In this document: positions 1,422 through 28,594 of the stretch, piece after piece | Layout of the letters: every line of letters begins with the position of its first letter | Numbering within the stretch: the first letter of the stretch is position 1 | From: Planctomycetota bacterium | Lineage (GTDB): Bacteria; Planctomycetota; Planctomycetia; Pirellulales; Pirellulaceae | Direction: 5' to 3' | Assembly: GCA_026692845.1 (NCBI GenBank) | Contig: JAPLNM010000095.1 | Location: 1 to 42,449, forward strand | Length of the DNA stretch: 42,449 bases | Position numbers and translations under genes: made by a program | Notes under the pieces: generated by a model | Database searches by the model: none | What the model was told of the DNA's origin: nothing | Seen by the model: the letters and a program-made list of their open reading frames with translations, nothing else

Positions 1422-2252
1422 TCAGTCTCCAGCAGATTTCCACTGCAATCGACCGATGGCTTTGGCCAAACCCGTCACGGGATCGACGTCGACCCAGGTG
1501 GCAGCCAGGCGGACGTCTTCGGTCGCCACATGGAAGGTGTTGGGATCAAAGGTCAAGGTGGTTTTTAACACGGGCTGAATTTCACGTCCGAGAATACTCT
1601 TGTACGGACCCGTCATTCCGATGTCGCATTGAAAGGCCGTCCCGTTGGGCAGGATCTGCTCGTCGGCCGTGGTCACATGCGTGTGGGTCCCAAGCACGGA
1701 ACTGACTCGACCATCGAGAAAGCACCCCATGGCCTGCTTGTCACTGGTCGCTTCGGCATGCAAGTCCACGCAACGGATTCGGACCTCGGCTGGGATCATT
1801 TCGAGGACTCCTTCCACGGCCTCGAAGGGGCAATTGACCGGACGCATAAAGACGCGTCCGAGCAGACTGATCACAGCCACAGGGATTCCCGTTTGGGTGT
1901 ACACCACACAATAGGTTTTCCCAGGAGCCTTGGTCGGGAAATTGGCCGGTTTGACGATGTTCTTACGGGTCGAAAGAATCTCCTGGATCTCTCGCTTTTT
2001 GTAGATGTGGTCCCCGAGGGTGATCGCATCGACCCCTGCTGATACGAGTTGCTCGTATTGCTTGGCCGTCAGCCCGGCTCCTTCGGCTGCATTCTCCGCG
2101 TTGACGATGATCAGGTCGCAAGCTTGTTTTCGAAGCAGCTCGATCATCGAGCAGACGATGGTCATCCCCGGCTTGCCGACGACGTCTCCGACATGAACGA
2201 TGCGCACCGATTCGGGCAATTTGGAAGGGAGATTGGGGGCATGGTTCATCAT
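1422..2252 (-). CDS. YmdB-type metallophosphoesterase (TIGR00282 family)
   Basis: This 276-residue cytoplasmic protein belongs to the family of Bacillus YmdB, a cyclic-nucleotide phosphodiesterase. Visible blocks are VGDVVGKPG (Asp23), NAENAAEGAGL (Glu53/Asn54), TLGDHIYKK (Asp81/His82), VDLHAEATSDK and LGTHTHVTTAD, then GMTGPYKSILG near the C terminus. In characterised relatives the third block reads GNH; here it is GDH, so a metal-ligand Asn is replaced by Asp. The frame stays open for 74 codons further upstream, but that part is low-quality sequence running into the kinase gene. ATG at 2252 is preceded by GGAAG at a good distance and starts just before the conserved core. The gene follows the kinase by 94 bp on the same strand. 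Confidence 0.87.
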   Translation of the reverse strand: MMNHAPNLPSKLPESVRIVHVGDVVGKPGMTIVCSMIELLRKQACDLIIVNAENAAEGAGLTAKQYEQLVSAGVDAITLGDHIYKKREIQEILSTRKNIVKPANFPTKAPGKTYCVVYTQTGIPVAVISLLGRVFMRPVNCPFEAVEGVLEMIPAEVRIRCVDLHAEATSDKQAMGCFLDGRVSSVLGTHTHVTTADEQILPNGTAFQCDIGMTGPYKSILGREIQPVLKTTLTFDPNTFHVATEDVRLAATWVDVDPVTGLAKAIGRLQWKSAGD

Positions 2253-2346
2253 ACGATCTTCCGCATCCGACGCGCACAGAATCGATCCACAGGGGGATGC
2301 GATTATAAGACATCCCGCGCGATTCGAGCGGCTTAGGGCTGGCCGT

Positions 2347-4758
2347 TTACGTGGTTTTTGTCTCGATCGAATCCGGTCCGTCGCCCGAGAGGGTCCCGAA
2401 ATCGACGGTCTTGTCGAAATCCTTCGGCTCGACCATCGTTCTCCAGGTCTGCTCGTTTTCCGCAACGGGGGCACTGGATGGCTGGGCGAGCAACATTGTT
2501 TCGGAATTCGGGGATTTTGCCTGGGATTGTCCCTGGGACTTTACCTGGGACTTCGCTTGGGAACTTCCCGAGGTTGAAGCATCGCTCGGCGCAGGGAGCG
2601 GATCGATCGAAGGGTTGCTGCCCCGTTCGTAGCGGCTCCACCAAGCGTCTGCATCGTAGATGGTCCAAGCGTCGCTAGCGGCAAGCCGGTGGAGCAAATT
2701 GGAAAGATCGCGAGCAGTCTGCGGTCGTTTGGATCGATTCTTTTCCAAGCAAGACATGATCGCATGTTCGAGTTCCGAGGATATCGATTTTCCGGATCGG
2801 ACCGAGGGAGCCAATGGGACTGCATCGATATGCAATTGGCACAACTCAGCGAGCGACGAGGCTTGGAAGATCGGAGATCCAGTCAGGAGGAAGTAGCCCA
2901 CGGCACCGACGGCATACAGATCGCTCCGGGCATCGACTAAGTCGGGGGTTTGGATCGACTCAGGGGACATATACAACGGAGTCCCTGCCATCCCTTCTTG
3001 GTGCTTGGTCCGTTTGGCATCGTCGACGGCTCGAACCAAGCCAAAGTCCAAGAGTTTTACAAAATCGGGTACACCACCGCGTCGATTGAGCATGACGTTT
3101 GCGGGTTTGATATCGCGATGCACTAGGCCCATCGAGTGGGCTTCGAACAGCGAGCTGCAAAGCTGATCGAGGATTTTTGCGACCCTGCCTTCGGGCAGTG
3201 GTCCGTATTTATCGATGAGGTCTTGTAGATTGATCCCATCGAGATACTCCATCGCGTAGTAAAAGATACCCTCGGGGGTCCTGCCATAGTCGTAGATCGC
3301 GATGGTGTGGGGGTTGTTTAGATTGCAGGTGATTTGGACTTCTTGTTCAAAGCGGTTGATGGATGTCTCATTGACTCGTTCGACATTCAGAAGCTTGATC
3401 GCGCTTTGCCTGCGCAGCATCGCATGATGACCACGGTAGACGGTTCCCATCGCTCCTTCGCCGAGTTTCTCATCGAGGCGATATTGTCCAAGTTGTTTGG
3501 CTTCCACAGCCGCTTGCCTTGCTTCGTGCTGCAGTCGTCCGACGATGATGGTAAAGACCAATATCGCCATGGTCGTCAGCGCCAAGAGCCCAAACATGGT
3601 GTAAAAGGCGCGGCGCAAAATATTCAAAGGCTCAAAGGCTTCGTCGTAGTCGATCTCCGTGACCAAACCAAACGAGTAATCCTTGAGCCACGTCCAAACT
3701 CCGACGACCGGTACCCCTCGATAGTCGCGGTATCCTCCGATATCGATTCCATCTTTCTGATCCATCAATTGCGCCGCTGCCTTGGTGAAGGCCAATTCGC
3801 TTCGCCGGGACTTCGGTCGAAATCCCTTGGTCATGTCCCCACCGGGCTCGCGAAGCTGGATGTTGAGAATCGACTCGGCGTTGTCTCGGTCGGGAAGTAC
3901 CCCAAGGAGGATCAGGTCCTGGTCGAACCGACTGCCTGAGACCATCAACCCCTGAGAATCGACCGCGTAAGTCTCCCCGGAGCGACCTATGCGTCCGAGC
4001 TGGATCAGGCGGGTGAATTCGCGGTCGGGTCGAATGCGCAACGACAGCGCTGCGATGATCTGAAGGTCTTGGTTGAGGATCGGTACGCAGACAAACATCG
4101 TCGGCACACCGGTCTGCACCTTGCCCTGAGCATCAGCGATCGGAACGCTGCTAGCAAACGGTGGTGAGACGGTCGTTTTATTATCGAAAACTTTCGAAAG
4201 AAAGCTATCGTACTCTTGAAAGTCTTTCCCGATGAGCTCTCGATGGTTTGAAGCAAGCACCAGATGCTTCGGATCCGAGATCATGTAGCCTGAAAACTCG
4301 TAGTTGGCCAGCGTCGGTGCAACCTCTTGTTCGATCTGTTCGAGCAATTTCAGTGGATCGGTCCCATCGCTAGTAGCAGACGAACCGCTGCTTCGGCTGG
4401 TATTGACCAACCGCTCGACAATCTCGCGCAGATCGCTCTGATTGGCAAGCGTCCTGGCGGTGGTTTCCTGGTGAGTAAGCCACTTGAGCACCATCGATTT
4501 TTCGACTTCCAAAAGGGTCGACAGTTGCGATTGAAGGTTGGCCTCCATCGTCAATCGGATGCTGCGGGTGATCAGATAACCGATCAACGAAAGAAGTAGG
4601 ACAGCAAGGATCGGCCAGAGCCACAGTTGGCGGCGAAGCAGCAGCTTGGTGCTTTGGAACCTGTTTCCCATCGAAGTGCGTGCAAAGGTCATGTGCGCTT
4701 TGCGACCGTCGTCTTGGACTTTCGGCTCAGACCACCATTTTTTAATCGTAGACCACAT
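2347..4758 (-). CDS. Receptor-like Ser/Thr protein kinase with extracytoplasmic Cache-type sensor
   Basis: This is an 803-residue protein from ATG at 4758; a TTG 21 nt upstream is the only longer option. Order of parts: short cytoplasmic N terminus; membrane segment about 47-66; extracytoplasmic region about 67-385 with GETYAVDSQG near 261, a signature of double-Cache sensors; second membrane segment about 386-408; Ser/Thr kinase domain about 425-693. The kinase has a Gly loop GEGAMG, the Lys in AIKLL, catalytic HRDIKPAN, DFGLVR and APE-like SPES, so it looks active. The C-terminal tail of about 100 residues is Ser/Gln/Lys-rich with a 12-nt DNA repeat. The order (sensor first, kinase last) resembles histidine kinases and differs from the common PknB layout. 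The ligand is unknown. The YmdB-type gene follows on the same strand. Confidence 0.92.
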   Translation of the reverse strand: MWSTIKKWWSEPKVQDDGRKAHMTFARTSMGNRFQSTKLLLRRQLWLWPILAVLLLSLIGYLITRSIRLTMEANLQSQLSTLLEVEKSMVLKWLTHQETTARTLANQSDLREIVERLVNTSRSSGSSATSDGTDPLKLLEQIEQEVAPTLANYEFSGYMISDPKHLVLASNHRELIGKDFQEYDSFLSKVFDNKTTVSPPFASSVPIADAQGKVQTGVPTMFVCVPILNQDLQIIAALSLRIRPDREFTRLIQLGRIGRSGETYAVDSQGLMVSGSRFDQDLILLGVLPDRDNAESILNIQLREPGGDMTKGFRPKSRRSELAFTKAAAQLMDQKDGIDIGGYRDYRGVPVVGVWTWLKDYSFGLVTEIDYDEAFEPLNILRRAFYTMFGLLALTTMAILVFTIIVGRLQHEARQAAVEAKQLGQYRLDEKLGEGAMGTVYRGHHAMLRRQSAIKLLNVERVNETSINRFEQEVQITCNLNNPHTIAIYDYGRTPEGIFYYAMEYLDGINLQDLIDKYGPLPEGRVAKILDQLCSSLFEAHSMGLVHRDIKPANVMLNRRGGVPDFVKLLDFGLVRAVDDAKRTKHQEGMAGTPLYMSPESIQTPDLVDARSDLYAVGAVGYFLLTGSPIFQASSLAELCQLHIDAVPLAPSVRSGKSISSELEHAIMSCLEKNRSKRPQTARDLSNLLHRLAASDAWTIYDADAWWSRYERGSNPSIDPLPAPSDASTSGSSQAKSQVKSQGQSQAKSPNSETMLLAQPSSAPVAENEQTWRTMVEPKDFDKTVDFGTLSGDGPDSIETKTT
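2518..2565. repeat. 12-nt degenerate tandem repeat in kinase tail
   Basis: About four copies of a unit like CCTGGGACTTTA lie inside the coding sequence. On the minus strand they encode the SQAKSQVKSQGQSQAKS stretch of the kinase C-terminal tail. The unit length is a multiple of three, so copy-number change would keep the frame. Confidence 0.75.
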
Positions 4759-4850
4759 CGTTTGTAACTGCCTACACAATCGCTAAAACCGATACCATCG
4801 ATGCAAAACAAACCGAGGGAAATCGTCTCAATCCTCCCCCCAGTTTCACA

Positions 4851-4876
4851 CACTCGTGCTAGACACTCGTGCTAGA
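4851..4876. repeat. 13-nt direct repeat (2 copies)
   Basis: CACTCGTGCTAGA is present twice in direct tandem at 4851-4863 and 4864-4876. It lies in the 249-bp gap between the AsmA-like gene and the kinase, upstream of the kinase on its strand. Confidence 0.85.
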
Positions 4877-4942
4877 CAACGGTAGTTCGCAATTCCTTAC
4901 TGAGGAGCTCCAGGACCCATTTTCCGGAAAGATTCCCTAAGA

Positions 4943-5005
4943 GGTACGGTCGGTACGGTCGGTACGGTCGGTACGGTCGGTACGGTCGGTACGGTCGGTA
5001 CGGTC
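4943..5005. repeat. 9-nt tandem array (GGTACGGTC)7
   Basis: Seven perfect copies of GGTACGGTC stand head to tail and end 2 nt before the TAA of the AsmA-like gene (5008-5010). There are no spacers, so it is not a CRISPR. It would be transcribed as the 3' end of the aroF-bpt-AsmA transcript or the 5' leader of the kinase transcript. Perfect identity of all copies points to recent expansion. Confidence 0.97.
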
Positions 5006-5007
5006 GA

Positions 5008-6549
5008 TTACTTGCCCTCGGAGCTACCGCCCAGGATGTTCTTGAGTGCATCCCTCAAGGGGCGTCGAGGGGCCTCAGGTTTGGTAGGTTCCTTGCCTGA
5101 TGAATCGATCCGCTGGGCATCGATCTGCTGGGAATCGCTCTGCTGGGAATCGATCGGCTGGAGCAATCCGTCGGCTTGCTCGGAATTCGAACGGGTCTTG
5201 CGCTCGAGCCGGCGAGCCCTGAGTTCCTTGATCAAATCGACGGCCGCTCCGATCGCTTCGTCGGCCTTCCCATCGGTCAGACCACTTGCTAGGTCGATCA
5301 GAGCCGCAGTCCCCGGAGCCTCACCTCCTAGCGCGGCGCTGACGAGCGAGAGCAAATCGGCTGAGTCGCCGCGCAGAGATTTCCAGTCCACAAAGGGGGA
5401 ATCGATCGTCCCTCGCACCGGCAAGGTCACTTGAGGAACCCCGATCTGCTGGACCGACTCTCGGCGAGCGAGCATCTCCAAGGGGACTGGAATGCCCAAG
5501 CCCAGATCGATTTGTCGATCGACCAAGCCGACGGTGCCGGACGTAGAGAGTTGGAAACGCTGATCGATTTTCGGAAAGCCAACCTGCACGCCTCGATGCT
5601 CGACTCGACCATCGGCCACCTGGACTTGGATGACCGATCCATCGATAAACACTAACTCTTGCGGAATATCGGTCTTGCGAAGTTTCGCAATCATATCGAT
5701 GATGTTCACAACGATGGGTTCCGACGGTCCGCTGCGCACCTCATGGAGAGTCAGTTCGGCTCGCCCTTTGGCGTACAAAGGACGTTCCAACGGTATTTCC
5801 AGCTTGTCGAAGTTGAGCGAAACGCGACCGTCGAACCAAGCGGATTTGGCCAGCAGCGGGACGGCCCGTCCGAGCCCTAACCGCACGAGCTCCTGGGTCA
5901 CCTGAACTTGATCAAGCAATCTTGTCGGCGCAAAGATCAAGCGGGCATCGCCATCGAGAGCCAGATAATGCAGATCCAGATCGACCGGGGGAATGACCAT
6001 CAACTCCTCATCGGTATCCTGCCTGCGCACTGCAACCGAGAGACCCTCGACGACGACTTGGATATCCAATTTGGGTTTGGTCTTCGCCTGATCGGACTTG
6101 GGCGCCATGCTTGAGTTTTCGATCGACCTTGCTAGTTTTTCGATATTCGATGTGTTTTCGAGCATCTCGATGTCGAGTTTCGGTTTGCGAATCGTGAGCT
6201 TGCCGAGATCTCTTCCGTAGAGAAGGTAGCCGAGCATGGAGCGATTCGAGGCGATCGATTCGATCGAGAGCAAACTGCCCGGTCGATCCGATCGATCGCT
6301 CTGCTCGAGTTCGATCCCATGCAAAGACAGGGGTCGGAACCATGCGAATTGAGCCGACTCGATCTTGAGTCGAAAGCCTTCGATCGCCAGTTGATCGACC
6401 AGTCGCTGATACAGCCATTTGGAACCCAGGACCGACGGGACCGCACCGACCAGTGCGACGATTCCCATGAGCCCTACAAGCAGCCAGGTCGACCAGCGTC
6501 GGAGCAAGGGTTTGGCGGTTCGAACAGATTTTTCGTCGGGTTGATTCAT
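5008..6549 (-). CDS. AsmA-like membrane-anchored protein
   Basis: This 513-residue protein has a basic N terminus, one membrane segment at about 20-41, and a long periplasmic part. The part around residues 320-370 (STSGTVGLVDRQIDLGLGIPVP) resembles the C-terminal region of AsmA/TamB-type proteins, which are linked to lipid transport and outer-membrane homeostasis. The C-terminal 60 residues are low complexity (SQQSDSQQIDAQRIDSS), encoded by a 15-nt DNA repeat at 5112-5156. ATG at 6549 opens directly before the basic and hydrophobic stretch. It follows bpt by 28 bp on the same strand, so aroF, bpt and this gene probably form one transcript. Assignment rests on topology and short motifs, so the family name is tentative. 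Confidence 0.65.
   Translation of the reverse strand: MNQPDEKSVRTAKPLLRRWSTWLLVGLMGIVALVGAVPSVLGSKWLYQRLVDQLAIEGFRLKIESAQFAWFRPLSLHGIELEQSDRSDRPGSLLSIESIASNRSMLGYLLYGRDLGKLTIRKPKLDIEMLENTSNIEKLARSIENSSMAPKSDQAKTKPKLDIQVVVEGLSVAVRRQDTDEELMVIPPVDLDLHYLALDGDARLIFAPTRLLDQVQVTQELVRLGLGRAVPLLAKSAWFDGRVSLNFDKLEIPLERPLYAKGRAELTLHEVRSGPSEPIVVNIIDMIAKLRKTDIPQELVFIDGSVIQVQVADGRVEHRGVQVGFPKIDQRFQLSTSGTVGLVDRQIDLGLGIPVPLEMLARRESVQQIGVPQVTLPVRGTIDSPFVDWKSLRGDSADLLSLVSAALGGEAPGTAALIDLASGLTDGKADEAIGAAVDLIKELRARRLERKTRSNSEQADGLLQPIDSQQSDSQQIDAQRIDSSGKEPTKPEAPRRPLRDALKNILGGSSEGK
5112..5156. repeat. 15-nt tandem repeat in AsmA-like tail
   Basis: Three 15-nt units of the form GCTGGGAATCGATCT lie in the 3' part of the AsmA-like gene. 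In frame on the minus strand they give a five-residue repeat of the type (D/S)SQQ(I/S). Confidence 0.8.
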
Positions 6550-23128: not shown

Positions 23129-26026
23129 ATGGACGGCTTACAACGAAACCGAAACCGGCTCAAATCCCTGATCCGAAATGCTTGCATTTCGGCCTTGATG
23201 GTCCCATGGATCCCATCAGCCATGACCGGTTGCAATCGGGCCCATTATCGGACCAAGGCCGACGAGGAGGTCCGAAATTTGATCGACGAGAAGGTCTGCG
23301 ACTCGTCGATGCCATCGATTCCGGATATCCAGGTTGACCGTGCATCGCGGATGTTCGATCCGTTCAACCCGGACCGTCCACCGATGCCTGAGGACGACGG
23401 TGTGGCGCATCAGTACATGCGTTTGGTCAATGGCAAGAAGCACTATCCTTTGTGGGACGTCAACGGACGGACCAACACGTCGGAGAATCCAGTCTGGTGG
23501 CAGTACTTGCCCCTCGACGAGCGCGGAGTTTTGGTGCTCGATGCGGATACTGCGGTGCGTGTCGCGACATTGCACAACACGAATTACCAATCCGAGATCG
23601 AGACGCTGTATCTTTCGGCGTTGGATGTGAGCTCAGAGCGGTTCTTGTTGAGCAATCAGTTGTTTGCTGGATACGGATCGATTTACACTGCCGACGGGGC
23701 TTTGCGTCGGGGAGCTGGCGGGAATTCGAGTTCGACGTTCTCGAACAGTCCGTTTTCGCGAGGACCTCGCGGGCTGGCTCTGCGTCGTCAGTTTACCACG
23801 GGAGCCGATTTGATCGTGGGCTTTGCCAACACGTTGACTTGGCAATTGTCAGGTCCGGACTCACAGTCGGCCACCTCATTGATCGATTTTAGCTTCGTCC
23901 AACCTCTTCTTCGAGGTGCGGGTCGGGACGTGGTCATGGAGCGATTGACACTTGCAGAACGCACGTTGCTCTACAATGTTCGGGCGTTTGAACGATATCG
24001 CACAGGATTTTATACCACGGTGACCGTAGGTCGACAGGCAGAGGCCGGTCCGACCCGCCGCGGGGGCTTGTTTGGCGGAGCGGGCTTGCAGGGCTTTACG
24101 GGCCTCGGAGGCGGCTTTGGAACCGTTGGAAACGTCCAGAACAACGCGGGAGCGGGCTTTGGTGGTGGGGGTGCGGTCCCGCAAGTCGGCGGCTTTTTAG
24201 GGCTTGTCCAAAACCAGTTGCAAATCCGAAACGCCGAGGAAAACGTCGCTCGACTCCGAGACAATCTGGCTCGCTTTGAAGACACCCTGCGCGAGCAATT
24301 GACGATCATCCCGCCGACCCAAGACACGATTCCCGGACAGCAGCTTCAGGTGGCCCAAGCTCGCCAAGCGTTGATTTCGGCGCAGGCGAGTTTGCTGCAG
24401 CAGAAGTTCAACTACGAGCAGACGCTCGATAATTTCAAGAGCACGCTCGGATTACCACCTTACGTTTGCATCGAGATCAAGGATCCGATTCTCGATCAAT
24501 TCAACTTGATCAGCGGTGAGCTCAAGGAACGTCGCAACAAGGTTGCGGATCTTCGAGACGAGATTGGGAACGACAACACCAAACTCCTCGAGCAAAGTCC
24601 TGTGGAAACCGATCCTTCCACAGGCAAAAAGGAGCGATCGCTGACCAAGGGAAGCGAATCGACACAAGCCATCGAGCGGATCGATCGGCAGGCTCAAACG
24701 CTCGAAGATGTCCGAAAGACGCTTCTGTCGAAAGACTTCCCGTTGGTTCGTCAAGACATCGAAAGACTCAGGCAGGTCTTGCCTCAACGCATCGAGGAGC
24801 TCAAGCGTTTGCGCACGGTCTACGAGCAAGAGCGATCGATGATCTGCAACTTGCTCCCTATCGAAACCCTCGATGCGGCCTTGATCGACCCGACCGCGTT
24901 GGAAACGCTTACTGAGAAATTGAGCAAGGATGTCGATATTCTTGAACAACGCTTTTTGAACCGCGCCAAGCGGATCGAGCAACTCCAAAACGATGCCAAG
25001 AAATCATTGGCTAGCACCGGTCCTGGGGGCAAGGAACAGTTCAAAAGCCTTCGCGATGAAGTGATTCTGCCGAGCCAGTCCCTTTTGGCCGAGTTCGCCG
25101 AAGATGTGCTTGCACTCCAGGTCCTCCAAGCCCGAGCGAGGGTCGAAAGCGTGAACTTGCCCGAAGTCGATTTGCAGCCCGAAGAAGCCGTTCAGATCGC
25201 TCGTCAGCAGCGATTGGACTGGATGAATGCTCGGGCGCAATTGGTGGACTCTTGGCGATCGATCGAAGTGGTAGCCGACAACCTCGAAAGCTCGTTGGAT
25301 GTGGTCTTCAGCGGCGACATGCAGAACATCAACGACAATCCGTTGTCGCTGCGTGGACGAACCGGTCGCTTGCGAGCCGGCTTCCAATGGGACACGGCCC
25401 TGACGCGTATGAACGAACGCAACCAGTACCGTCAGGTCCTCATCGAGTGGCAGCAAGCCAAACGCAATTACTACCGATTCGAAGACGGCATCTGGCAAAC
25501 CCTACGTTCGCAGCTGAGAAATATTCGCTACAACCAATACAATTTCGAGCTGCAGCGCTATGCGGTTCGGATCGCGGCCCAGCAGATCACGATCAATGAG
25601 GATCTGCGTCAGATCCGCGAGAGTTTGAACCAAGCCTCTGGCCCGACGGCCGCCCGGGATAGCATCTCGGCCTTGCAGGACTTGCTCAACGCCCAAAACA
25701 CGTTCTTGGGCGTATGGGTCTTCTACGAGGCCCAGCGTCGGAACCTCGACCAAGACCTCGGAACGATCCGTGTCGATGCCGAGAACATTTGGGTCGATCC
25801 AGGTCCGATCACTTCCGAGATCTATGGATTCGACGGACAGGGAGCATTTTGCCCCCCTTGCGAGCCGCAATTCGGTCAACCCGAGCAGTTCGAATCGGCG
25901 CCCTTTGCACCGGAAATGATCCAGCCGATGATCGAACAACCCGTTGAGGTCGTCACACCGGCTGGATATCAACTTCGCCCGGTCCCAAAAAAGGGTATCA
26001 CCCTTCAGGAATACGTTCAACCATGA
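23129..26026 (+). CDS. TolC-like outer-membrane efflux lipoprotein
   Basis: This 965-residue exported protein has a basic N terminus, a hydrophobic stretch and a lipobox SAMTGC with Cys35, so it is probably lipidated. The body has the alternating coiled coils and strands of the TolC/OMF family, for example the long helices around 365-415 ([21 protein letters not shown]) and the second copy around 815-865. At roughly twice the usual TolC length (about 450) it has extra coiled coil at 455-690 and a Gly-rich insertion at about 310-355 ([20 protein letters not shown]). It would form the outer-membrane duct of an export machine; a periplasmic adaptor is not encoded nearby. Its last 10 bp overlap the convergent SulP gene. 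Confidence 0.82.
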
Positions 26027-28062
26027 TTCGCTAGGGGACTTGCACTGACCTCCGATTGGCTGAATTGATCCGGCAAAAGCACTTCGATCGTCTCGACCGA
26101 AACGGTCGCATGGTACTTGGTCATCACTTCCTCCCGAAGGTACTTCAAGAGACCCTCGCTGACCTGGAACGGGACGATGGTTTCCAACCGGATGCCATTG
26201 GTTGTCTCCCAAGTACCATCGTGGACGTTGTGACGACCGACGCCTCGCGAAGGAGTGATAGTAAAGCCGCTAGCGCCGCGGGCCAAGCATTCTCGTTGCA
26301 AAAGATCCTCGCAATCCGGTTCGGCCACAATGGTGATGCGTCGCAATCGAGCCAACCCCCGCTTGCGGGCCGCCTCGGCGTGGTTGCTCAGGGCTCGATG
26401 CTGTTCGAGCCCCACAATTTCCAGTTTCAAGCCTTCGGCTGTAAACTCGGATTGAGTCTCGTGGAGTTTCTCCATCACCGTATGATCGATCAGCTTGGCG
26501 TCTGATACATCGATGATCAGGTTCTTTCGCTGGACCAATCCGATGTGCTCGATTTGGCGTTTGAAGGGGATCCAGTTGCTAAAGACCGCCGATTCGCTCG
26601 CCCGGATCTTAACGGTATCAGGCGAGACCTCCTCGATGTCCAGATACGCTTTGAAAAACGATTTGATCGGAACCCCATTGATCAAGTGGATCAGGAACTT
26701 CAAACCGATCCCTGCGGCCACTCCGATCAAAAGGTCCGTCGCGAGCGTCACGATCAGGGTCGTAACGAAGATGACAAACTGCTCGCGTCCGACCTGGTAC
26801 ATGTGGGAGAACTCGCTCGGGTGCGCAAGGCGAAATCCGGTGTAAATCAGCATCGCTGCCAACGCCGATTTTGGAATCAGGTGGAGTGTGGCCGGAAGAA
26901 TCGCGACACAAACCAGCAGGAATACTCCATGCCACATGTTGGCAAATCGCGTCCGGGCCCCGTTGTCGATATTGGCCTTGCTTCGAACAATCTCGGAAAT
27001 CATCGGCAGTCCACCGAACATCGAAGCGCATAGATTCGCACAGCCGACGGCCAACACATCGCGGTTCATATCGGTTTTGCGCTTCCATGGGTCGATCGAA
27101 TCAATCGCCTTTGCGCTCAAGATCGATTCGAGCGTGCCGATGATGAAAAACATCCCGATCCACTTCCAAGCGATCCACTGCTTGAGGACCCCGAAATCCG
27201 GAAGGGTGATTTGATCGAGGATGCCAAACATCTTCGACGGTAGCGGGACTAGATACTGGTCCCCCAATTTGTATTCATGTCCGAAGAGTTTGTACTGATG
27301 GTTCTCGAGCAAATTCAAATACAGTCCGATCAAAACCGCGACGACTAAGACGACCAATTGCGGAGGGATCACAGAGATTGCTTGGATCTTCTTCTTGATC
27401 GTTGGCCACAGAGCAAGCAGACAAAGGCTCAATAGACCGATCGATGCGATCGCAGGATTGGCCTGCGAAATCAAATGCGGAATCTCCGCAAGCAATTCCA
27501 ATGGCTCTTGCTTGTCGGTCGATACACCCAATGCATTCGGGATCTGCTTGGCGATGATGATCACACCGATGGCCGAGAGCATGCCGTGTATGGCGGACTT
27601 TGGGAAGAACTCGCTGAGAATTCCCGCTCGAAACACCCCGAACAAAATCTGTAGGACCGCAGCCGCCACTCCGACGGCTAAGCACGCGCGGTAAGCATCG
27701 AAGTCACCAGGGCCTTGGCCATCAGAAAAACCGTTCCCACCGAAGTCTTTGATGCAACCCAAGACAATCACGATCAAGCCCGCTGCGGGTCCTTTGATCG
27801 TCAATTCGGAATTGCTGATGAAGGTCGTCAGGATGCTGCCGATGACGGCAGTCATAATACCAGCCATGGCCGGATAGCCACTGGCAAGCGAAATCGCCAA
27901 GCACAGCGGCAAAGCGATAATGAAAACCATGAGACCTGAGACCAGGTCCTCTTTGAAGTAACGGACAAATCCCGCCGCGTTGCCGCGCGGCGTCTCGACA
28001 TTGCTTACAGACACTTTTGAATCCCGATTGCTTGTGAAAAAGTTAGACCTGCGATTGCCCAT
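26017..28062 (-). CDS. SulP family anion transporter with STAS and C-terminal PII/SbtB-like domain
   Basis: This 681-residue protein has an N-terminal SulP membrane domain about 35-465 with [30 protein letters not shown] and [11 protein letters not shown], typical of the sulfate/bicarbonate transporter family including BicA. A STAS domain follows at about 482-562 ([20 protein letters not shown]). After it, residues 573-664 read [25 protein letters not shown], a polar loop, then [19 protein letters not shown] and [10 protein letters not shown]. This is the beta-alpha-beta pattern, nucleotide loop and T-loop spacing of PII-like proteins such as SbtB. The fusion suggests built-in control by an adenine nucleotide. 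Start ATG 28062 has GAGGG upstream. Substrate is uncertain: bicarbonate or sulfate. Confidence 0.85.
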
Positions 28063-28098: not shown

Positions 28099-28410
28099 TT
28101 AAGCCGGTGGAGGGCGTTGCAATTGCGGTTCAAAAAACGCATCATCGACCCCTAGCCTCGGCCGGTCCGATAGATGCAAAGTCCAAAAACAGACGGGCTG
28201 CCAAACCTGGCTGGCCTCATAGAAAACCGTTTCGCGGAACTCGTCATGCCGAAACTCCTCGGCATCCGACTCGATCTCTTCGACCACGTTGGCAGCCACC
28301 AACGACGGATCCGACGTGAAACATGGCTCAAAGACACCCGCGACGCAGGAAAGCAGCAGCATTCCAACGATCTGCAGAGCAAATCTGCCTTTTAAAAAAT
28401 AGAAAATCAT
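28099..28410 (-). CDS. Small membrane or secreted protein upstream of SulP
   Basis: This 103-residue protein has one hydrophobic segment at about 11-30 (LQIVGMLLLSCVAGVFEPC) after a basic start and then an acidic body (EEIESDAEEF). ATG 28410 has GGAAG seven bases upstream; the 29 open codons before it look non-coding. The stop lies 36 bp before the SulP start on the same strand, so both are probably on one transcript. I do not recognise the family. It may be an accessory or assembly factor for the transporter, which is inference from position alone. It ends in a Pro-rich tail (QLQRPPPA). Confidence 0.6.
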   Translation of the reverse strand: MIFYFLKGRFALQIVGMLLLSCVAGVFEPCFTSDPSLVAANVVEEIESDAEEFRHDEFRETVFYEASQVWQPVCFWTLHLSDRPRLGVDDAFFEPQLQRPPPA

Positions 28411-28594
28411 GTTCAACTTCCGAGGAGCACATCCTTGGGAACCATCGACAGGTCCAAAGCACATACATCTAGAATTGTAGACCGATTCGGGAATCAAACA
28501 GGGACGAACCGCATTTATTTGCTACTTTCCCCTTAGATAACAAACGCGTTACAACACCAAAATCCCATTTTACTACATTCAAACTGGAGTTTTC

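Follow-up and report, generated by a model that had tools for sequence, protein, structure and literature searches.

The fusion gene and its surroundings

The window, i.e., the whole stretch of 42,449 nucleotides analysed here, belongs to a planctomycete genome of the family Pirellulaceae and carries on its minus strand a gene whose product joins a SulP/SLC26 membrane domain, a STAS region and a C-terminal PII-like domain in a single chain (Table 1). When the host genome was searched with the whole protein, the fusion protein was the sole match. A PII-like domain had been placed at residues 573–664 by the sequence-only reading, and its coordinates are correct, as these residues of the minus-strand frame correspond to positions 26071–26346.

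Table 1. Features of the SulP-STAS-PII gene, with positions counted in the window.
Feature	Residues	Positions	Strand	Basis
SulP-STAS-PII fusion gene	681 aa	26017..28062 (stop included)	-	Open frame and translation
SulP/SLC26 membrane domain	36-461	26680..27957	-	Pfam PF00916, model helices, BicA (6ki1) and SLC26Dg by sequence/fold
STAS domain	473-553	26404..26646	-	Model strands/helices 473-550; Pfam STAS 479-553 below cut-off (E 0.008)
Linker with AARKRG motif	554-570	26353..26403	-	Conserved among fused relatives
PII-like domain	571-667	26062..26352	-	Pfam P-II 574-662, AlphaFold, Foldseek/VIA, dN/dS
GASGFT motif	596-601	26260..26277	-	Conservation in fused tails and SbtA-linked stand-alone proteins
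T-loop	607-622	26197..26244	-	Between strands 2 and 3, lowered model confidence; G607 and G609 conserved
Variable C-terminal end	668-681	26020..26061	-	Substitutions versus L154; residues 672-681 with pLDDT <50

The ATG at the 28062 end might be too early as a start, since two stop codons interrupt this region (28012–28062) in L155, a close relative; several other relatives also begin translation further inside than the first ATG of the frame. The GTG of residue 17 (28012–28014) is a likely start of the gene. Upstream lies a minus-strand frame of 132 aa (28099–28497) for a small protein, which has no match in a Pfam search, shows 71–72% identity in L154 and L155, and is weakly kept in other Pirellula loci.

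Membrane and STAS domains

Pfam Sulfate_transp (PF00916) covers residues 36–435 with 208.5 bits (cut-off 23.2), and in Foldseek comparisons the membrane domains of SLC26Dg and BicA match the SulP part with an rmsd of about 5. Full-length SLC26 structures (SLC26A11, SLC26Dg) align over about 520–560 columns; at their rmsd of 12–14 Å, and with the aligned ranges not given, these alignments do not support a relative placing of the domains. The STAS region had been described as complete. The alternating strands and helices at residues 473–553 of the full-length model agree with this, but the Pfam STAS match to residues 479–553 (16.3 bits, E 0.008) stays under the cut-off of 22.6.

The NCBIfam equivalog model for BicA gave 127.1 bits, far under its cut-off of 880. 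In a sequence alignment, D258, T262 and T302 of the BicA Na+ site (residues after PMC13249358, with the chain count one behind the published numbers) correspond to E312, S316 and I358 of the fusion protein, all three of which are invariant across 38 aligned rows. The site is thus partly kept, with the acid and one hydroxyl retained and one hydroxyl lost. The acidic residue is Glu, as in SLC26Dg and AtSULTR4;1.

The C-terminal PII-like domain

Pfam P-II matches residues 574–662 with 42.0 bits in the whole protein and 46.4 bits in the tail alone (curated cut-off 25), and a search of NCBIfam gave no match to the tail. AlphaFold predicts a confident β-α-β-β-α-β arrangement with a core pLDDT of about 97. 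The elements of this model are a strand (571–580), a helix (582–594), the GASGFT motif (596–601) running into a second strand (601–605), a loop of lowered confidence (607–622), a third strand (623–630, IRLETIVP), a second helix (632–646) and a final strand (652–661); residues 672–681 have a pLDDT below 50. All elements named in the sequence-only reading reappear in the model, together with helix 582–594, which it had not listed. The polar, T-loop-like loop is also present, but comprises 16 residues modelled with low confidence and not about 20.

The best structural matches of the tail (Foldseek/VIA) are TTHA0516 (2cz4), CPII and SbtB, while GlnK and GlnB rank lower, and the predicted fold is close to that of CPII, a carboxysome-associated PII-like protein (Thiomonas intermedia; PDB 5d4p, 5ds7). 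According to their PDB titles, CPII structures contain ADP, AMP and bicarbonate. A sequence search of solved structures (phmmer) found TTHA0516 with an E-value of 3.2e-13 and SbtB with 0.41. The R-loop of SbtB (CGPxGC) is absent, as the window protein has no Cys after residue 592. A profile built from nine SbtA-linked stand-alone relatives (see below) gave the tail 63.1 bits, compared to a maximum of 10.3 among 5,000 versions of the tail with shuffled letters; together with the Pfam score, this control excludes a chance resemblance to PII. Structure prediction with fold comparisons including SbtB and GlnK/GlnB, and profile searches, both of which had been proposed as checks along with the domain itself, thus agree, and on profile scores and the predicted fold the tail is confirmed as a true member of the PII superfamily.

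Relationship to other PII proteins

The host genome contains four P-II matches, three stand-alone proteins and the SulP tail. The stretches RQK(G) and GDGKI are the signature of canonical PII (GlnB/GlnK). All three stand-alone proteins possess the RQK and GDGKI stretches, which are absent from the tail. In a PII tree of 49 rows, classical PIIs are split from the fused tails and the SbtA-linked proteins with a support of 100/100, and the three stand-alone PIIs of the host genome branch apart from the tail; with 24 of its 45 inner branches left open and a bootstrap that had not converged, the tree supports this split alone. The SbtA-linked profile likewise separates the tail from the genome's own GlnB, which scored 26.0 bits. 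The Pfam family P-II covers both kinds of protein and would also accommodate a nitrogen regulator of the canonical GlnB/GlnK type attached to a transporter, but the tree split, the profile scores and the lacking signature stretches leave this reading with next to no chance, and we regard it as ruled out. Instead, sequence comparisons support a grouping of the tail with SbtA-linked stand-alone PIIs of the TTHA0516 type. The likeness to SbtB drawn in the sequence-only reading is therefore apt as far as profile and tree are concerned, and the transporter clade is tied to the DAB system (see below), but TTHA0516 and CPII are nearer among the solved structures and the R-loop is absent.

Family and phylum searches yielded 22 relatives of the tail outside SulP fusions, and 20 of these places were examined. 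An SbtA-like gene occurs in 19 of the 20 stretches, the exception (L103) being a canonical PII. Of 13 frames from the neighbourhood, 7 gave a Pfam Sbt_1 match, in 7 of 11 loci, the other frames being further neighbours or overlapping frames. Stand-alone relatives also occur in four plasmid records, and the two examined both adjoin SbtA; an Arthrobacter plasmid carries a PII-SbtA pair with the annotation bicarbonate permease. Furthermore, two Nitrospira loci (L227, L229) combine a tail-less SulP from this clade with an independent P-II gene located immediately next to DabA. The P-II protein of L227 scored 80 bits. On a profile of fused tails the Nitrospira protein reached 25.5 bits (GlnB 19.6), on the SbtA-linked profile 21.7 (GlnB 26.0), and in the PII tree it lies on the fused/SbtA-linked side with a very long branch, so that by sequence it is uncertain whether it is akin to the tail. 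Adjacent to SbtA, adjacent to DabA and as part of a SulP fusion, PII proteins occur in three settings tied to inorganic carbon.

Conservation and selection in the tail

Residue E627 is invariant in 51 of 51 aligned fused tails, followed by R625 (50) and T577 (49) and by G596 (48), T601 (45) and G599 (42) of the GASGFT motif; within the T-loop, G607 and G609 are kept in 47 and 44 of 48 tails. The glycines, T601 and E627 are common to the SbtA-linked stand-alone proteins (19 to 21 of 21; G596 in 19, G599 in 21, T601 in 20), and R625 occurs in 16 of these 21. The T-loop arginines differ. Fused tails have R610 in 41 of 50 cases, whereas the SbtA-linked proteins carry Arg at column 611 (13/21) and column 614 (15/21), neither of which is kept in the fused tails; column 614 is unconserved there, and both residues are His in the window protein.

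This loss might indicate that the domain has given up ligand sensing and serves as an assembly or docking module for other PII domains or for the DAB complex, which would also agree with the fact that many relatives have the gene next to dabA and NuoL/M-like genes, and with the repeated absence of the tail. However, the near-invariance of GA-S/T-G-F/Y-T, G607, G609, R625 and E627, mostly shared with the SbtA-linked relatives, seems to exceed what a pure scaffold would require, and we consider a docking role quite improbable.

Between the window and L154, the PII part has accumulated 34 synonymous versus 3 non-synonymous changes (dN/dS 0.019, compared to 0.028 for the membrane domain). The last 14 residues, by contrast, show 10.5 non-synonymous versus 1.5 synonymous changes and are unconstrained. 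L155 was left out of these calculations because internal stops dropped from the alignment had shifted its codons. Such purifying selection indicates that the domain is maintained. A decaying leftover of a former fusion, without function in the window organism, could account for the relatives that lack the tail, for the tails in L189, L192, L209 and L226 that are too divergent for the PII profile, and for the comparison with the more distant L156, where synonymous sites approach saturation and the dN/dS of the PII part (0.138) exceeds that of the membrane part (0.067). The contrast to the freely changing end in the L154 comparison and the high confidence of the predicted fold make decay highly improbable, and on the dN/dS against L154 it was counted out.

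Two further observations concern variation among the relatives. Cys605, directly before the T-loop, occurs in 43 and Cys655 in 35 of 51 fused tails, with both present in 31; both are Ser in the window. They could possibly form a redox site unlike the R-loop of SbtB. In addition, the Pirellula MAGs L156 and L157 differ by 25 synonymous changes in the STAS part compared to 7 in the membrane and 2 in the PII part, an excess that suggests local recombination or a chimeric assembly.

Distribution of the fusion

Searches with the tail sequence alone gave matches in 33 of 100 sampled family genomes and 36 of 392 phylum genomes, which are underestimates inherent to such single-sequence searches. An in-frame tail follows SulP in 43 of the 58 loci from the family and phylum searches, the window included. 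From a collection of named genomes, the analysis retained the 80 best of 554 confirmed relatives, so that counts by phylum are not a census; a PII tail can be recognised in 53 of these 80 but not in the other 27. Four of the 27 (L189, L192, L209, L226) possess a tail of comparable length without a match to the PII profile, i.e., strongly diverged or different domains. Two of the 80, at 95% identity, are Pirellula MAGs, which makes a Pirellula relative the most probable source of the window. The sequence-only reading had named absence from close orthologues as evidence against its proposal; within the best 80 of 554, the Pirellula MAGs L154–L157 carry the tail, as do 49 further loci. The planctomycete survey it had suggested found the same tail in Pirellula, Rhodopirellula and other planctomycetes, including R. 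baltica (L193), R. maiorica (L179), Roseiconus (L171) and Aporhodopirellula (L167), and a restriction to one genus was rejected by the family, phylum and named-genome searches alike. A Candidatus Scalindua MAG (L205) also encodes a fused member, whose tail scores weakly (E 5.6e-6). At positions 1822–5668 of this locus a fused and a tail-less SulP lie side by side and are sisters in the tree (support 89). L191 (Verrucomicrobia), L165 (Methylococcaceae) and L220 (Alphaproteobacteria) are MAGs and might be misbinned.

A tree of 84 SulP parts, calculated with a quick method, contains at least eight changes between fused and other genes on starred branches, a count that cannot tell gain from loss. 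With this number of changes, the fusion appears not to be an essential trait. A separate PII next to a tail-less SulP, as a substitute for the fused one, is confined to the two Nitrospira loci among the 27 tail-less loci of the best 80 of 554. None was present in 18 examined stretches around tail-less SulP genes, one of which (L124) is itself fused, and a genome-wide search with the tail gave no match in 16 of the 17 genomes whose clade members all counted as tail-less, the genome of L124 (G047) being a known miss among them. In a plasmid collection, 1,942 records contain SulP relatives; among the 15 matches listed, none covers 80% of the query in one place, and record L151 has a longer frame.

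Linkage to the DAB system and possible substrate

In many relatives the SulP gene is preceded, in the same orientation, by dabA, one NuoL-like gene and one NuoM-like gene. The DabA of L142 matches PF10070 with an E-value of 6.8e-179, and the names NuoL-like and NuoM-like are taken from this locus, where scores are under the equivalog cut-offs. In the family sample, DabA is encoded no more than 10 kb away from 23 of the 31 fused genes (the window's own included). The same holds for 10 of the 19 remaining clade members and for 1 of 69 distant SulP paralogues, the latter being the stronger rows without weaker rows, second fragments and unlisted matches. At the genome level, DabA occurs in all 48 genomes with a clade SulP versus 8 of 52 without (Fisher p 1.7e-20, in a test that ignores relatedness and with the clade cut, an identity of at least 44%, set after the search results were known). 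For the listed distant paralogues, the corresponding numbers are 34 of 53 genomes versus 22 of 47 (p 0.11). Among the best 80 of 554 named-genome relatives, many on short contigs, 25 of the 53 fused genes and 16 of the 27 others have DabA at a distance of no more than 6.5 kb; where at least 4 kb upstream are available, the proportions are 24 of 36 fused and 13 of 21 tail-less genes. The linkage thus characterises the SulP clade as a whole, whether or not a tail is present, and bears on the job of the transporter and not on that of the tail.

In the host genome the fusion gene is not adjacent to DabA: it is located on contig C95, while DabA, a NuoL-like gene (identified by Pfam) and a NuoM-like stretch (by tblastn) lie together on contig C92. 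In a genome of the same genus (G010), SulP-PII and DAB genes share one contig at a distance of about 62 kb, and they are likewise apart in the Pirellula genomes examined. The host genome (96% complete) has no match to Sbt_1 or to the RuBisCO large chain. Bicarbonate is also needed by non-autotrophs, for some of which MpsAB/DAB is described as a source (PMC8567241).

It is this linkage that points to bicarbonate as the substrate. SulP proteins carry many anions, and the domain could be a real PII sensor on a transporter for another one, such as sulfate or a carboxylate, with the DAB linkage reflecting charge or pH balance. Sulfate and chloride transporters and prestin are the top full-length solved relatives by fold, the BicA Na+ site contains Glu as in SLC26Dg and AtSULTR4;1, and the window copy does not adjoin DabA, all of which would agree with such a role. 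It is harder to reconcile with DabA being present in every sampled genome with a clade SulP, a tie that the distant SulP paralogues lack both by gene neighbourhood and by genome, and we therefore regard another anion as unlikely, although less so than the docking role discussed above.

Proposed mode of action

On balance we lean towards reading the fusion as a bicarbonate, or more broadly inorganic-carbon, SulP transporter gated in cis by a domain of the SbtB/CPII type. SbtB binds adenyl nucleotides (PMC10991534); its T-loop inserts into the cytoplasmic cleft of SbtA, and the nucleotide sits in the cleft between subunits (PMC8352866). In the fusion protein, the membrane domain would move an anion, most likely bicarbonate, while STAS might hold a dimer together. 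The PII domain would read adenine nucleotides in the clefts between neighbouring PII subunits, possibly along with bicarbonate, as CPII does. Its T-loop would change shape with the ligand and plug or free the cytoplasmic exit of the transporter, and would thereby do in cis the job of the separate SbtB trimer on SbtA. Where the protein is made from the same cluster as DabA and its NuoL-like and NuoM-like partners, CO2 hydration and bicarbonate transport might be supplied together.

Several points speak against this reading. SbtA and SbtB are both trimers (PMC8352866), whereas BicA is a dimer (PMC13249358), and a trimeric PII on a dimeric transporter would create a symmetry mismatch, so that the fusion should either form a higher-order complex or use a non-trimeric PII. 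Moreover, the tail is dispensable, as 27 of the best 80 of 554 loci have no recognisable one, and the T-loop arginines of the SbtA-linked proteins are not kept in the aligned tails. Tentatively, one may picture a self-gated transporter, with an SbtB/CPII-type sensor built into the DAB-cluster SulP of planctomycetes, one of them without RuBisCO, in which PII trimers bridge SulP dimers into a lattice or a D3-type assembly and T-loops gate the passage of bicarbonate, with adenylates and bicarbonate itself as signals. If this were true, signalling described in trans in carbon-fixers would run in cis in a non-fixer.

Relation to known systems

SbtB of cyanobacteria is a separate protein coupled to SbtA, whereas the tail described here is covalently fused to SulP-STAS. 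Some SbtB homologues possess the CGPxGC R-loop, which the tail lacks, in a host genome without an Sbt_1 match. The GASGFT and GxG motifs are shared, and adenyl-nucleotide binding of the SbtB type may extend to the tail. CPII and TTHA0516 of Thermus thermophilus (PDB 2cz4, titled only 'putative PII-like signaling protein') differ from the tail in being stand-alone proteins. SulP is likewise joined to an inorganic-carbon module in the SulP-carbonic anhydrase fusions (Rv3273 clade) and can2-sulP pairs, which have been read as bicarbonate transporters in a clade described without STAS (PMC6458275). There the partner is an enzyme, whereas here it is a PII-type sensor behind a STAS domain.

The control of bicarbonate transporters by PII-like proteins is under active study, and a physical contact of SbtB with the SulP transporter BicA has been reported, its mode being unexplained in that account (PMC13249358). 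Since a naturally fused protein contains sensor and SulP transporter at a fixed, known ratio in a single polypeptide, it would offer a direct system for studying, by structural methods and transport assays, how PII domains control SLC26-type proteins. The data also suggest that planctomycetes, Rhodopirellula among them, may regulate their inorganic-carbon supply through adenylates.

A search of the open-licence literature found no publication on a SulP-STAS-PII fusion or its DAB linkage. While SbtA-SbtB, CPII and the SulP-carbonic anhydrase fusions are already known, the link of the SulP-PII fusion clade to the DAB system is new here; the domain pair itself is visible to Pfam, and databases will show it. 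DAB/MpsAB consists of DabA and DabB, and DabA and NuoL-like genes share a cluster with SulP-PII in relatives; the excerpted accounts of DAB do not describe SulP or a fused PII as parts of it (PMC13144422, PMC8438413). In two gammaproteobacterial MAGs (L225, L228), a tail-less SulP of the clade occurs with DabA and genes of an Mrp-type Na+/H+ antiporter, for which Pfam identified MNHE, Oxidored_q2 and Proton_antipo_M in L228 and MrpF and MnhB in L225, forming a SulP-DabA-Mrp cluster.
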